Assembly: GCA_021295155.1 (NCBI GenBank)
Contig: JAJTJC010000036.1
Coordinates: 1,116,001 to 1,180,000 of the forward strand
DNA length: 64,000 nucleotides
Source: Flavobacteriaceae bacterium D16
GTDB taxonomy: Bacteria > Bacteroidota > Bacteroidia > Flavobacteriales > Flavobacteriaceae
Reading direction: 5' to 3'
The notes beneath the pieces are model-generated. The model did no database searches. It worked only from the letters and a program-made list of their open reading frames with translations, and was not told the DNA's origin. The translations under genes and the position numbers were made by a program. Shown here piece after piece: positions 25,506 through 31,355 of this stretch. Numbering within the stretch: position 1 is the first letter of the stretch; every line of letters begins with the position of its first letter.

Positions 25506-26750
25506 TTATTCCTCTTCTTCGATATCATTATTGATAATTTCCAAGTCTATATTATCTGGCGCAATCGGTTTCTTGCGATTCTTTATCATTGCCCAGGTCA
25601 TGATTAAACTGGTACCAATAATAACAAACAACAATATGCCCGGCTCAAAATTTATCACCTGGGCTTCCGCCGGGATGGCATAGAACAGCAGTACAGTAAT
25701 CAATCCTCTGGGAGCTACAAAAAGTTGCGGAAATATATCCTTGCCCAAAAAGGTGCGCAGTAAAACAAAGCGGATGCCGTAAATAGAAGCCAGGATCAGC
25801 ATGCTGATCAACAAAACGCGTATACTTAATAAGGAAGAAAGTACAATGGTAATACCGAATACCACAAAGAAAAATGTCCGCACCACAAAGGCAGATTCCA
25901 GGGTAATGATATGCAATTCCTTGTAGATTTGCTCTGCCCTGTCTTCTTTTAAATAACGTTTCAGGGGTCCTCCGAAGAACAGCTTCATGTTGGCAATCAC
26001 CAGTCCGAAAATGAGTATGATAATCAGGGATGAAAGATGGAATTTTTTGCCAATTGCGTATAACAAAAGTAAAACGGCTATCAGCAAGAATTGTTTTGCC
26101 TGCGACTTAATGCCCTGAAAGATCAGGATAATTACATAGCTGGCTATAATGGCAATCACAATGGTTAGTAAAATACTTCCGGCATACCCAGCCACTCCGG
26201 TACCTTCTTCCGGGTTAAGCTGACCAATAAGGAAATAGAAGAGAATGATACCGGCAATATCTGAAAAGGTGCTTTCATAAATGTGGAATTCCTTTTTCTC
26301 TTCCGATAGTCTCCCAACACTGGGGATTATTATCGCACTTGATAGTATGGAGAGCGGTGTGGCGTAAACCCAGGCCTGAGGCATGCTCATTTCCGGAACA
26401 AGGGCATGCAGGATCAGGGCCGCGATCCATGCAGACAGGCCTAAACCCATTAGAGCAATCGCCATGGATTTTAATAGAATCCAGATTTTGTCTTTTCGCA
26501 GTTCCAGTTCCAGGGCCGCTTCCAATACGATCATAATAAGTCCGACGATACCCAGAACTTCCAGTGCGGGGAATAGATCCGGTAGTTGGTCTACAAAGGC
26601 TTTGGCCACGTATTGGAGGATAATACCCAAGATAATGAGCATTAGAACAGAGGGAATATTCGTTTTACGGGACAACCCGTTAAACCAAAACGAAAGGATC
26701 AGGATTACAGAAGCCTCAATAATCAGATTGTAGGAAGAGAAAATATCCAT
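25506..26750 (-). CDS. Cation:proton antiporter (CPA family)
   Basis: 414 residues with about 12-13 membrane segments and the Na+/H+ exchanger domain. The central unwound region has TPLSILSSAIIIPSV followed by YESTFSDIAGI. This Ser-Asp pair sits where CPA1 antiporters usually have Asn-Asp and CPA2 have Asp-Asp. The C-terminus ends in a short acidic tail (NNDIEEEE). Role: pH or sodium homeostasis at the inner membrane. It is convergent with the GH3 gene and divergent from rimP, and appears to be a single-gene unit. Confidence 0.9.
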   Translation of the reverse strand: MDIFSSYNLIIEASVILILSFWFNGLSRKTNIPSVLMLIILGIILQYVAKAFVDQLPDLFPALEVLGIVGLIMIVLEAALELELRKDKIWILLKSMAIALMGLGLSAWIAALILHALVPEMSMPQAWVYATPLSILSSAIIIPSVGRLSEEKKEFHIYESTFSDIAGIILFYFLIGQLNPEEGTGVAGYAGSILLTIVIAIIASYVIILIFQGIKSQAKQFLLIAVLLLLYAIGKKFHLSSLIIILIFGLVIANMKLFFGGPLKRYLKEDRAEQIYKELHIITLESAFVVRTFFFVVFGITIVLSSLLSIRVLLISMLILASIYGIRFVLLRTFLGKDIFPQLFVAPRGLITVLLFYAIPAEAQVINFEPGILLFVIIGTSLIMTWAMIKNRKKPIAPDNIDLEIINNDIEEEE

Positions 26751-26882: not shown

Positions 26883-26890
26883 TATATTTG
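26883..26890 (+). promoter_or_regulatory. -7 element of the rimP-nusA-infB operon
   Basis: Exact TATATTTG. No TTTG lies at the ideal distance; the nearest is at 26852-26855, 27 bases away. Start of transcription would be near 26897, leaving a leader of about 57 bases that holds the hairpin at 26920-26940. Confidence 0.5.
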
Positions 26891-26919
26891 CGCCACTGAA
26901 AGGATAGTAATGTATTCAT

Positions 26920-26947
26920 GAGGGGACAAATAGTCCCCTCTTTTATT
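26920..26947 (+). promoter_or_regulatory. Terminator-like hairpin in the rimP-nusA leader (candidate attenuator)
   Basis: Perfect 8-bp GC-rich stem GAGGGGAC / GTCCCCTC around a 5-base loop, followed at once by TTTTATT. This has intrinsic-terminator form but sits between the promoter and the first gene, six bases before the rimP ATG at 26954. It should cause conditional early termination of the operon. NusA, encoded second in this operon, acts on exactly such hairpins, so NusA feedback is the simplest reading. Confidence 0.7.
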
Positions 26948-26953
26948 ACAGAA

Positions 26954-27418
26954 ATGATATTGAAGGAGAAAGTAGCCTGGTTGTTAGAACAGGAGCTCAG
27001 CAATAGCCCCTCACTTTTTTTGATTGATTTCAAGGTAACACCGGGCAACGGCGTTAAAATTGTAATCGACGGAGATGAAGGAGTTCGTTTAAAAGACTGT
27101 GTTGCGCTTAGCCGGGCCATTGAAGGGGAACTGGATAGGGAAGAATATGATTTTTCCCTGGAAGTTACTTCTGCCGGAGCTACTGCCCCAATTGTCAATC
27201 CCAGGCAGTACCGAAAGAATATTGGCAGAAAACTGGCCGTCAGGACAGCAGAAAACAAGTTCGAAGGAAACCTTTCTGAGGCTGATGACAAGCGAATAGT
27301 ATTGGAATGGAAAACCAGGGAGCCCAAACCAGTAGGTAAGGGAAAGGTAACGGTATTAAAATCCCAGGAAATCCCGATAACGGAAATAGAAGAAGCAAAA
27401 GTAAAATTGAATTTTTAA
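26954..27418 (+). CDS. rimP: Ribosome maturation factor RimP
   Basis: 30S maturation factor, 154 residues from the ATG at 26954 (MILKEKVAWLLEQEL). The earlier in-frame ATG at 26918 would translate through the leader hairpin and is unlikely. The two-domain RimP pattern is visible: VTPGNGVKIVIDGDEGV, DCVALSRAIEGEL and the SAGATAPIVNPRQYRKNIGR segment that leads into the Sm-like C-terminal domain. It is first in rimP-nusA-infB, with nusA 10 bases downstream. Confidence 0.95.
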   Translation: MILKEKVAWLLEQELSNSPSLFLIDFKVTPGNGVKIVIDGDEGVRLKDCVALSRAIEGELDREEYDFSLEVTSAGATAPIVNPRQYRKNIGRKLAVRTAENKFEGNLSEADDKRIVLEWKTREPKPVGKGKVTVLKSQEIPITEIEEAKVKLNF

Positions 27419-27428
27419 TTAGTAGGAC

Positions 27429-28661
27429 ATGGAGAATATCGCATTGATTGAATCTTTCTCGGAATTTAAAGATGATAAGTTCATTGACAGGGTGACACTT
27501 ATGGCTATTTTGGAAGATGTATTCAGGAATGCTTTGAAAAAGAAGTTCGGATCTGATGATAATTTCGACATAATTATTAACCCTGATAAAGGAGATTTGG
27601 AAATATGGCGAAATAGGGTAGTTGTAGAAGATGGAGAAGTAGAAGAGCCCAATGAAGAAATCGAACTAAGCGAAGCCCGCAAAATCGAGCCCGATTTTGA
27701 GGTAGGAGAAGATGTGTCTGAAGAGGTTAAACTGGTAGATCTGGGAAGAAGAGCTATACTGGCTCTGCGCCAAAACCTGATATCCAAGATTCACGAGCAC
27801 GATAATACCACAATATACAAGCAATTCAAAGACCTGGAAGGGGAAATATATACTGCTGAGGTACACCATATTCGTCATAAAGCGATAATCCTTTTGGATG
27901 ATGAAGGGAATGAGATTATTCTACCGAAGGAAAAACAAATCCCTGCTGATTTCTTCAGAAAAGGAGATAATGTTCGCGGTATCATTGAAGGAGTAGAATT
28001 AAAGGGTAATAAACCCCTGATTATTATGTCCCGCACCTCACCTGTTTTCCTTGAACAACTGTTCTTCCAGGAAATTCCAGAGGTTTTCGACGGGCTGATT
28101 ACCATTAAAAAGGCAGTGCGCATCCCTGGGGAAAAAGCTAAGGTGGCTGTTGATTCCTATGATGATCGTATTGATCCTGTAGGAGCCTGTGTAGGGATGA
28201 AAGGTTCCCGAATACACGGTATTGTTCGTGAATTGGGCAATGAAAATATTGATGTGATCAATTGGACTAACAATCCACAACTTATGGTAACCCGAGCATT
28301 GAGTCCTGCTCGTGTCTCCTCCGTCAAGCTTAATGATGAGAATATGACGGCCCAGGTTTACCTGAAACCTGAAGAGGTTTCCAAGGCTATTGGACGAGGC
28401 GGTCATAATATCCGACTTGCGGGTCAACTTACTGGTTATGAGATTGATGTATTCAGAGAAGGCGTTGAAGAAGATGTGGAGTTGACCGAGTTCTCCGATG
28501 AGATTGAGGCCTGGGTTATTGAAGAGTTCAAGAAAATCGGGCTGGATACAGCTCGGAGTGTTCTGGAACAGGATGCGGATGACTTGGTTAAACGGACTGA
28601 TCTAGAGGAAGAAACTGTCCTCGATGTAGTACGTATACTCAAGGAAGAATTAGAAGATTAA
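27429..28661 (+). CDS. nusA: Transcription termination/antitermination factor NusA
   Basis: RNA polymerase-binding elongation factor, 410 residues. The N-terminal RNAP-binding domain is at about 1-125 (FKDDKFIDRVTLMAILEDVFRNAL). An S1 domain follows (about 130-200), then two KH domains (200-345) with DPVGACVGMKGSRIHGIVRELGNENIDV and ARVSSVKL...AIGRGGHNIRLA. The C-terminus has a short helical region with LDTARSVLEQDADDLV and no acidic AR repeats, which is normal outside proteobacteria. It lies between rimP and infB. Its likely target includes the hairpin in its own operon leader. Confidence 0.97.
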   Translation: MENIALIESFSEFKDDKFIDRVTLMAILEDVFRNALKKKFGSDDNFDIIINPDKGDLEIWRNRVVVEDGEVEEPNEEIELSEARKIEPDFEVGEDVSEEVKLVDLGRRAILALRQNLISKIHEHDNTTIYKQFKDLEGEIYTAEVHHIRHKAIILLDDEGNEIILPKEKQIPADFFRKGDNVRGIIEGVELKGNKPLIIMSRTSPVFLEQLFFQEIPEVFDGLITIKKAVRIPGEKAKVAVDSYDDRIDPVGACVGMKGSRIHGIVRELGNENIDVINWTNNPQLMVTRALSPARVSSVKLNDENMTAQVYLKPEEVSKAIGRGGHNIRLAGQLTGYEIDVFREGVEEDVELTEFSDEIEAWVIEEFKKIGLDTARSVLEQDADDLVKRTDLEEETVLDVVRILKEELED

Positions 28662-28703: not shown

Positions 28704-31355
28704 ATGGCAAAAGGCGCAACAATAAGGCTTAATAAAGTACTTCGGGAACTCAATATCTCGTTGGACAGGGCGGTTGATTTCCTTGCATCTAAAGGACACG
28801 ACGTGGATGCCAGGCCAACAACTAAAATATCCGATGAGGTATATCAGGTGCTTTTGGATGAGTTTCAAACGGATATGTCCAAGAAAGCTGCCTCAATGGA
28901 AGTAGGTGAGGAGAAGCGGAAGGAGAAAGAAGCCTTACGATTGCAAATGGAGCAGGAACAGGAAGAGAAGCGTCTTGCCCGAGAAAAAAGAGCAGCTGCT
29001 CGTGAAGTGGTAAAAGCTAAGGTAGAATTAGCCGGACCTAAAAAGGTTGGCAAGATTGATCTGGATAAAAAGCCCAAAGCACCTGCCCCTAAGGCAGAGA
29101 CTCCGGCTTCACCGAAGGAAGCTGTCCAGGAAAAGCCTGTGGCTAAAAAAGAAGAAACGGTAAAAGAGGAGCCTGCAAAGGAAGAACCTCTAAAGGAAGA
29201 ACCTGCAAAGGAGGAACCACAATCCATTGAAACGCAGTACAAGAAATTATCCGGCCCAAAGATTATGGGCGACAAAATAGATCTTTCTAAATTCAAAAAG
29301 CCGAAAAAGAAGAAAGAAGAAACTGCACAACCCGATAAAGCCGAAAGGAAAAAACGCAGAAAGCGTATTGTCAGCAATAGAGAAACAGGCGGTGCACGAA
29401 CTAGGGGAGTCGGAAAGAAAGGGCAACGTTTTACAGCACCTAGGGTAGAGCCTACAGAGGAAGAAGTACAAAAACAAGTACGCGAAACCCTTGAAAAACT
29501 TCAGGGGAAATCCAAAAAAGGTAAAGGCGCCAAATACCGAAGGGATAAAAGGGAGTTACACCGTCAGCAGACGGAGAAGGACCTTGAACAACAAGAATTG
29601 GAGAGCAAAATCCTCAAGGTAACCGAGTTTGTTACCGTAGGGGAAGTGGCTACAATGATGGAAGTGCCCATCACCGATATAATTTCTGCCTGTATGTCGC
29701 TAGGAATTATGGTTACAATGAACCAGCGTCTGGATGCTGAAACCCTTTCTATTGTAGCAGATGAATTTGGCTACGAAGTAGAATTTGTAAAAGCCGATAT
29801 AGAAGAAACTATAGAAGAAGAGGTCGATGATCCGAAAGACCTCAAACCGCGAGCACCTATTGTTACCGTTATGGGGCATGTGGATCACGGTAAAACATCA
29901 TTGCTGGATTACATCCGACAGGAGAATGTAATAGCAGGTGAAAGCGGAGGTATTACCCAGCATATCGGTGCCTATGGTGTTTCCCTTACAAGTGGACAAA
30001 AGATTACCTTCCTGGATACCCCTGGTCACGAAGCCTTTACGGCGATGCGTGCGCGTGGTGCCCAGGTTACGGATATTGCCATAATCGTAATTGCCGCTGA
30101 TGACGATATTATGCCTCAAACCAAGGAGGCCATCAGTCATGCACAGGCTGCAGGTGTCCCTATTGTATTTGCGATTAACAAGATTGACCGCCCTACTGCT
30201 AATCCCGATAAGATTAAGGAAGGGCTTGCCAATATGAACCTCTTAGTGGAAGATTGGGGTGGAAAAATCCAGTCCCATGATATTTCTGCAAAAACAGGAG
30301 ACGGAGTTAAGGAATTACTGGAAAAGGTATTACTAGAAGCCGAATTACTGGAGCTGAAGGCCAATCCGGATAAACTGGCCAATGGTACAGTCGTAGAAGC
30401 CTTCCTGGACAAAGGTAGAGGATATGTATCTACCATCCTGGTACAAGGCGGGACCCTGAAGATTGGCGATTATGTTCTCGCGGGTACCTGTAGCGGAAAG
30501 ATAAGGGCTATGCAGGACGAGCGTGGCAAAACGGTTAAAGAGGCAGGACCTTCTACCCCTATTTCTATTTTGGGACTTGATGGTGCACCACAAGCCGGGG
30601 ATAAATTCAGTGTGCTGGAAGATGAAAGAGAGGCCAAACAAATTGCGGCCAAGAGAGGCCAGTTACAAAGAGAGCAAGCGGTTCGTACGCAAAGGCACAT
30701 TACCCTGGATGAAATTGGAAGGCGTATTGCCCTTGGTGAGTTTAAAGAATTGAACATTATCCTCAAAGGTGATGTGGACGGTTCGGTAGAAGCACTAACG
30801 GATTCCTTCCAGAAATTGTCAACCGACGAAATCCAGGTCAACATTATACACAAAGGTGTTGGAGCCATTACAGAATCTGATGTACTGCTGGCATCTGCCT
30901 CAGACGCCATTGTGATCGGGTTTAACGTGAGACCAATGGGTAACGCCCGTGATATAGCAGATAAGGAAGAAATCGATATCCGAATCTACTCCATTATCTA
31001 TGACGCTATCAATGACCTGAAGGACGCAATGGAAGGGATGCTTTCTCCTGAAATGAAGGAGGAGATTACCGGAACAGCTGAAATAAGGGAAACCTTCAAG
31101 ATTTCTAAAATCGGTACCATTGCAGGATGTATGGTTACCAGTGGTAAAGTGTTTCGAAATTCACAAATACGCCTTATTAGAGACGGAGTGGTAGTTTACA
31201 CAGGACTGTTGGCTTCCCTGAAAAGGTTTAAGGACGATGTGAAGGAAGTGTCAAAAGGCTATGACTGCGGACTGCAGATCAAGAACTATAATGATATCAA
31301 GATTGGAGATATTGTAGAAGCCTTCCAGGAAATAGCAGTTAAGAAAACCCTGTAA
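28704..31355 (+). CDS. infB: Translation initiation factor IF-2
   Basis: GTPase that places initiator tRNA on the ribosome, 883 residues. After a small N-terminal IF2N domain (1-55) comes a long Lys/Glu-rich region of about 200 residues with repeated KEEP units (near 29161-29220). A second IF2 N-domain follows near 295-345. The G domain begins near 390 with [18 protein letters not shown] and NKID. Domains II-IV complete the protein. The gene is 42 bases after nusA and ends the operon. The KEEP repeats may vary in length between strains. Confidence 0.98.

Follow-up and report, generated by a model that had tools for sequence, protein, structure and literature searches.

A terminator-like hairpin in the rimP-nusA-infB leader of Bacteroidota, a candidate NusA-stimulated attenuator

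Introduction

RimP is a ribosome maturation factor. Mondal 2016 is said to be the original report of NusA-stimulated attenuation at the nusA operon of Bacillus subtilis. Passages of PMC12288461 present this attenuation in the leader of the B. subtilis nusA operon as autoregulation by NusA. Naville & Gautheret (2010, PMC2965389) describe the rimP-leader as the attenuator with the widest distribution, with NusA proposed as its regulator, and their passages on the element name Firmicutes and Gammaproteobacteria. The strings 'Bacteroid' and 'Cytophag' are absent from the main text of that paper. For E. coli, passages of PMC2965389 and PMC6511841 report an effect of NusA on its own operon and terminators before rimP, which are designated t1 and t2 in K-12 (PMC6511841). 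The original prediction for the locus studied here had placed NusA-dependent attenuation of this operon in proteobacteria; the experimental case in these sources is B. subtilis (PMC12288461).

Within the family of our locus, a 2021 study of Flavobacterium psychrophilum (PMC9723704) names, in one phrase and unexplained in that passage, a structured 5' element before rimP, the same gene as here, that occurs in other Flavobacteriaceae genera and has no Rfam hit. The terms 'nusA', 'premature' and 'transcription termination' are absent from its main text, as are 'rimP' and 'nusA' from the main text of a B. thetaiotaomicron map (PMC7366714). A Bacteroidota version had been predicted to be worth describing. 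This stands as regards a terminator, since neither a characterisation of the Bacteroidota element as such nor a mention of its retention before nusA was found in the main texts of the openly accessible papers covered; it is tempered by the 2021 mention of a structured rimP element.

Anatomy of the leader hairpin

The analysed window is a stretch of 64,000 nucleotides from Flavobacteriaceae bacterium D16. In it, rimP, nusA and infB are co-directional, and the upstream gene, transporter-like by reading of its open reading frame, is divergent. The features of the locus are as follows.

26883-26890, + strand, -7 promoter element TATATTTG of the TAnnTTTG type, read from the sequence
26895-26953, + strand, inferred 59-nt leader RNA, its start placed with the box at -12 to -5
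26920-26927, + strand, 5' arm of the terminator-like stem, GAGGGGAC, read from the sequence
26928-26932, + strand, hairpin loop AAATA, read from the sequence
26933-26940, + strand, 3' arm of the stem, GTCCCCTC, read from the sequence
26941-26947, + strand, T-rich tail TTTTATT, read from the sequence
26954-27418, + strand, rimP (RimP_N and DUF150_C above cut-offs)
27429-28661, + strand, nusA (NusA_N and KH_5 above cut-offs)
28704-31355, + strand, infB, encoding IF-2 (IF-2, GTP_EFTU and IF2_N above cut-offs)

The stem at 26920-26940 is a perfect one of 8 bp, whose innermost pairs, C-G and A-U, lie below four G-C pairs (GGGGAC/GTCCCC). The tail is followed by ACAGAA and the ATG of rimP at 26954, so that six bases separate the tail, and 13 nt the stem, from the ATG. 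The predicted arrangement of a perfect 8-bp stem with a T-rich tail, after a -7 element and six bases before the first gene, was thus confirmed at 26920-26947, and its reading as a terminator-shaped hairpin, placed behind the promoter and ahead of the first gene, is supported by this anatomy. A stable stem-loop directly joined to a U tract, as an intrinsic terminator has, is present. The stem and loop fold with -16.0 kcal/mol (29-nt stretch; z -4.7), and none of 200 shuffles was equally stable. The 59-nt leader likewise gave a z-score of -3.0 with 0/200 shuffles equally stable, and a stretch of 101 nt including downstream coding sequence gave just -1.46.

Passages of the F. psychrophilum study place the promoter box of the TAnnTTTG class at -12 to -5 (PMC9723704). 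With the box in this register, transcription would start near 26895, which gives a leader of 59 nt with the stem starting 25 nt into the RNA. An alternative rimP start at ATG 26918 was rejected, as it would place the stem inside rimP, and is unlikely from comparison with relatives: in nearly all rows, the alignment with their RimP proteins begins within residues 1-7 of the product counted from 26954, and in-frame stops are found 6-30 nt ahead of the rimP start in three leaders (L033, L094 and L098). Two other assignments were also rejected, a terminator on the minus strand, where no T run follows the stem, and a terminator of the upstream gene, since this neighbour (25506-26750) is divergent.

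A second small hairpin, GGATA-n6-TATTC, immediately precedes the main stem (26902-26917, + strand) and is specific to the subclade of the window. Its downstream arm occurs together with the main stem in 16 of 100 rows, or 14 without two duplicate rows (L001-L008, L033-L036, L094 and L098). The upstream arm is GGATA, with GAATA in L094 and L098, which turns a G-U pair into A-U.

Comparison with the described rimP leaders

The locus shares with the rimP-leader attenuator, as described in passages of PMC2965389, the terminator hairpin in a rimP-nusA-infB leader, a G-rich 5' arm, a C-rich 3' arm and a T stretch. The described elements lie 4-130 nt before rimP, a range that includes the 13 nt found here, and in both cases there is no larger conserved element. 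The published stem motif GGGc...gCCC, on the other hand, is not found; the stem here is GGGGAC...GTCCCC with an A-U pair inside. The B. subtilis operon likewise has a terminator in the leader of an operon encoding NusA, at which high NusA would lower transcription, but the stimulation by NusA is reported there (PMC12288461) and predicted here, and its rimP leader has 180 nt (PMC2965389), as compared with about 56-59 nt by our placement of the start. From our reading of the E. coli sequence, GGGC-TTTAG-GCCC and seven T lie shortly before the rimP start, in the same operon position, but with a second hairpin upstream plus metY; the two hairpins presumably correspond to t1 and t2.

At the gathering score, Rfam 15 yields just a tRNA elsewhere in the window. 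The best match of the leader was SraG with 16.2 bits (threshold 50) on the opposite strand, and a scan of 20 loci gave one sub-threshold overlap, sraA with 37.8 of 56 bits at L193. Identity with sraA or SraG was rejected because these scores are below threshold. We regard the hairpin as a new lineage variant that would work like the rimP-leader attenuator but lacks the published stem motif and an Rfam match, and for which we infer a role of NusA in Bacteroidota. The element could receive an Rfam model.

Terminator scans in the genome

The pattern GAGGGGAC-N3-7-GTCCCCTC has one site in the window and none in 100 shuffles, and GGGGAC-N3-7-GTCCCCT has a single site in the 3.22-Mb genome when both strands are read. 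In a 20-kb scan, the rimP hairpin ranked at the top of 27 terminator-like sites, with 18.7 expected by chance at the loose threshold; a generic terminator scan is on its own weak evidence and proves nothing. In the window together with 400 kb of its genome, comparable hairpins are found within 100 nt upstream of 12/357 ORF starts, and of 2/88 when only starts with a divergent neighbour are counted. Of 36 terminators at 3' ends, 23 match or exceed the stability of the rimP hairpin, which is thus of ordinary strength and not a weak one.

Conservation and compensatory changes in close relatives

RimP-based searches provided 30 loci (51/60 genomes matched) and 70 further loci, and 97 distinct leaders were left after the duplicates L031, L032 and L064 (of L002, L003 and L016) were dropped. 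The hairpin and the T tail are present in 97/97. The stem is identical to that of the window in 66 leaders, and compensatory changes give the stem GAGCGGAC/GTCCGCTC in ten and GAGAGGAC/GTCCTCTC in one; the others are eight G-U forms, five without the outer pair and seven more divergent stems. One internal A-C mismatch occurs in L091. Loss of stem pairing in close relatives was therefore not seen, and the compensatory base changes that the original prediction had proposed to look for were found. In the sequence-made alignment A1, comprising 80 of 82 non-identical stretches (L033 and L075 left out), 97.5% of 640 cells pair, and sliding the partner cuts the pairing to 43-75%. Both sides change in 4/8 pairs, as compared with a shuffled mean of 1.4 and 6/500 shuffles reaching the observed value, counts that do not represent independent events, since many rows are related and the C-G swap is largely that of one clade.

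The conservation of the stem sequence (66/97 identical) goes beyond the needs of pairing, as it might if the inverted repeat bound a repressor as DNA downstream of the promoter. However, the loops of relatives range from 3 to 9 nt, which would shift the spacing and phase of the half-sites, and just one side of the stem carries the T tail. These two features indicate an RNA element rather than a DNA site with fixed spacing, and make a repressor site very improbable.

Further statistics were taken from 96 leaders, excluding L033, whose hairpin was missed by the 125-nt scan. Each of the tail positions 1-4 is a T in 99-100% of them. The distance from hairpin to rimP is 4-29 nt in 94/96 leaders and 97 and 99 nt in two, and is longer in L033, outside this count; most of the hairpins end 7-18 nt ahead of the start codon. 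A TAnnTTTG is found in the 60 nt preceding the stem in 96/96, 11-31 nt ahead of it (4% in base-shuffled sequences), and the order of box, stem and tail is constant. The inferred leader has a median length of 56 nt, and the stem would begin at a median of 24 nt, and at most 27 nt, from the start of transcription.

No competing fold or antiterminator ahead of the hairpin was evident in the 96 leaders: the RNA ending before the 3' arm folds with a mean of -1.6 kcal/mol, as compared with -1.4 when the upstream part is shuffled (n=96). Alignment columns upstream of the stem are variable except for clade-specific stretches, and neither a conserved sensor nor a leader ORF upstream of the terminator, as a riboswitch, T-box or leader-peptide attenuator would have, was evident from distances and columns. 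Since no alternative fold that sequesters the 5' arm was found and the stem is preceded by no more than some 24 nt, sensing by a riboswitch or a leader peptide is improbable, which leaves a terminator that would be read by the transcription machinery itself.

Distribution in Bacteroidota

A covariance model built from the leaders of relatives, R1, matches 318/397 Flavobacteriaceae genomes at E<=0.001. Of the 79/397 without a match at this threshold, at least one (G020, L006) has a G-U-containing form. The best 30 R1 loci were checked, and in 30/30 the hairpin is placed where the RimP match begins. Class-wide, R1 gave many matches at other places and on both strands, and is weak as a detector at this level. 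A genomic repeat family was rejected, as the second-best R1 match (L134) resembles an ordinary 3' terminator. This site (L134, 1440-1600), the second-best R1 match of its own genome, has GGGGCTTATATAAGCCCC and seven T directly 3' of a 121-aa ORF. Alignment A2, which contained mixed strands, was cut to 71 right-strand rows, one per locus, with 26 dropped; 543/554 cells pair and changes on both sides are seen in 27, in an alignment fitted to the model.

In the class Bacteroidia, rimP is present in 135/149 genomes, and 100 leaders were taken from 101 chosen places (G568 left out). A strict scan found a terminator-like hairpin in 89/100, as compared with 0.8% of dinucleotide shuffles, and a looser scan, allowing one mismatch and longer loops, in 92/100 (null 1.8%); GGGGAC-N3-9-GTCCCC occurs in 47/100. 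Among the 11 leaders missed by the strict scan, seven have by eye a mismatched, long-loop or short-tail hairpin, L215 (G472) has its hairpin 186 nt upstream of the ORF (L299), and L211, L230 and L237, 3/100 class leaders, from families f113 and f106, have no leader hairpin while rimP-nusA is intact. These families keep rimP-nusA without a visible hairpin, which indicates that the hairpin is dispensable in some lineages. The single-genome scan hardly exceeded its background, as would be the case for a chance or passive, functionless remnant, but the frequency of 89/100 against 0.8% in shuffles, together with the compensatory changes, leaves this explanation next to no probability.

In a wider draw from the phylum (L106 left out as too short), hairpins were found in 19/29 leaders by the strict scan and in 27/29 by the looser one (null 3.8%), and the stem sequences are mostly different. 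A hairpin before rimP-nusA-infB is thus nearly universal, being found in almost every Bacteroidota genome examined. In three leaders of this draw (L110, L114 and L116, family f32), a 9-bp stem AAAGTGGGG-gat-CCCCACTTT stands before rimP, another stem in the same place.

Extended leaders and genomes without rimP

In L033, L094 and L098, 95-126 nt of extra sequence lie between the tail region and the ATG, and the hairpin and tail are intact. The added 95-126 nt contain no TAnnTTTG. Inverted-repeat-like stretches are seen in this extra leader.

Ten genomes of the class, from five families (f83, f108, f90, f121 and f91), contain nusA and no RimP_N above the cut-off, and no recognisable rimP was found in them even when weak matches were listed to E 10. 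In nine of the ten, a hairpin with a T tail is located upstream of nusA (loci L291, L292, L295, L296, L298 and L302-L305). Eight hairpins (G470, G549, G488, G521, G570, G532, G501 and G559) were found by script, in a scan of 330 nt with relaxed limits and a base-shuffled background of 0-1.5%, and lie 34-246 nt from the nusA start; that of G463 was found by eye. The tenth genome, G471 (0.5 Mb), gave no hairpin in the nusA leader. TAnnTTTG precedes the nusA hairpin in 8/9, and G549 has none in the stretch read. From these sequences, rimP appears to have been lost in the Bacteroidia families f83, f108 (in part), f90 and f121, with nusA keeping the leader hairpin. One genome of f108 (G575) keeps rimP with the hairpin, and the loss within this family was therefore likely separate. 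Elsewhere, rimP and nusA adjoin in 101/101 rows compared, so that the rimP-less genomes alone allow the two genes to be told apart as partners of the hairpin. The element therefore follows the nusA operon or transcription unit, and not rimP.

These cases bear on whether the hairpin acts as RNA on rimP translation or mRNA stability, by masking the start site, offering an RNase site or protecting the 5' end. Its end, 7-18 nt from the start codon in most leaders, is in reach of an initiating ribosome. However, the T tail is kept at positions 1-4, hairpin and tail survive the 95-126 nt insertion, which speaks against a device masking the start codon, and the hairpin is kept before nusA without rimP at the larger distances given above; we consider an action of this kind improbable. 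The variable loop, the lack of an evident antiterminator and the intact extended leaders are more readily explained by a terminator than by an operator or by a hairpin blocking the start codon.

Proposed attenuation by NusA

We propose that the hairpin is probably a short transcription attenuator of rimP-nusA-infB, at which termination is stimulated by the operon's own product NusA. The hairpin would be an intrinsic terminator some 25-50 nt downstream of the start of transcription, and polymerase coming from the single promoter-like box recognised in the leader would have to read through it for rimP-nusA-infB to be expressed. Such a position is sensible for conditional termination alone, as predicted, or for a partial one. 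In vivo, the hairpin would terminate part of the transcripts, with NusA setting the fraction: NusA would stimulate termination, so that high NusA would give less transcription of the operon and low NusA would permit polymerase read-through. Among the candidates NusA ranks first: it stimulates termination at hairpins, is encoded behind this one and autoregulates by leader attenuation in B. subtilis (PMC12288461). Retention of the hairpin before nusA without rimP lends indirect support to the predicted direct feedback and suggests that NusA, a termination factor, limits its own production.

The hairpin might instead be an attenuating terminator that does not work via NusA, being a fixed partial one or tuned by RimP, IF-2, NusG, a retained sigma factor or polymerase speed. 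The same anatomical evidence applies to it, the stem is ordinary in strength, and RimP as the feedback factor was considered in passages by Naville & Gautheret (PMC2965389). RimP as the sensor is disfavoured by the hairpins before nusA in 9/10 genomes without a recognisable rimP, and a termination factor encoded behind the terminator, as in B. subtilis (PMC12288461), would be a simpler sensor. We regard attenuation by other means as rather unlikely.

Stimulation by NusA, the reading we prefer, may be extended in a more tentative form to an ancient, minimal NusA thermostat common to Bacteroidota. In a leader of about 56 nt, NusA could read GGGGAC/GTCCCC at the polymerase exit and set the fraction of termination with no other sensor, and the device could have been kept with nusA while rimP was lost repeatedly; this is possible, though doubtful. 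If attenuation by NusA holds, transcription attenuation of the nusA operon would extend to a whole phylum with little-studied termination control, and the action of NusA in Bacteroidota could be studied on a system of a single hairpin. The loss of rimP with the hairpin kept before nusA would be a natural experiment that separates feedback by NusA from that by RimP.

The leaders differ from 3'-end terminators of the same genome in the distal part of the tail. At positions 5-8 they are less T-rich, with 2 T in 79/91 leaders as compared with 3 T in 22/34 of the 3'-end terminators. Distal interruptions of the U-tract are described, in passages of PMC8060035, as a feature of NusA-dependent terminators, and by this analogy the tails of the leaders are in line with such a class.
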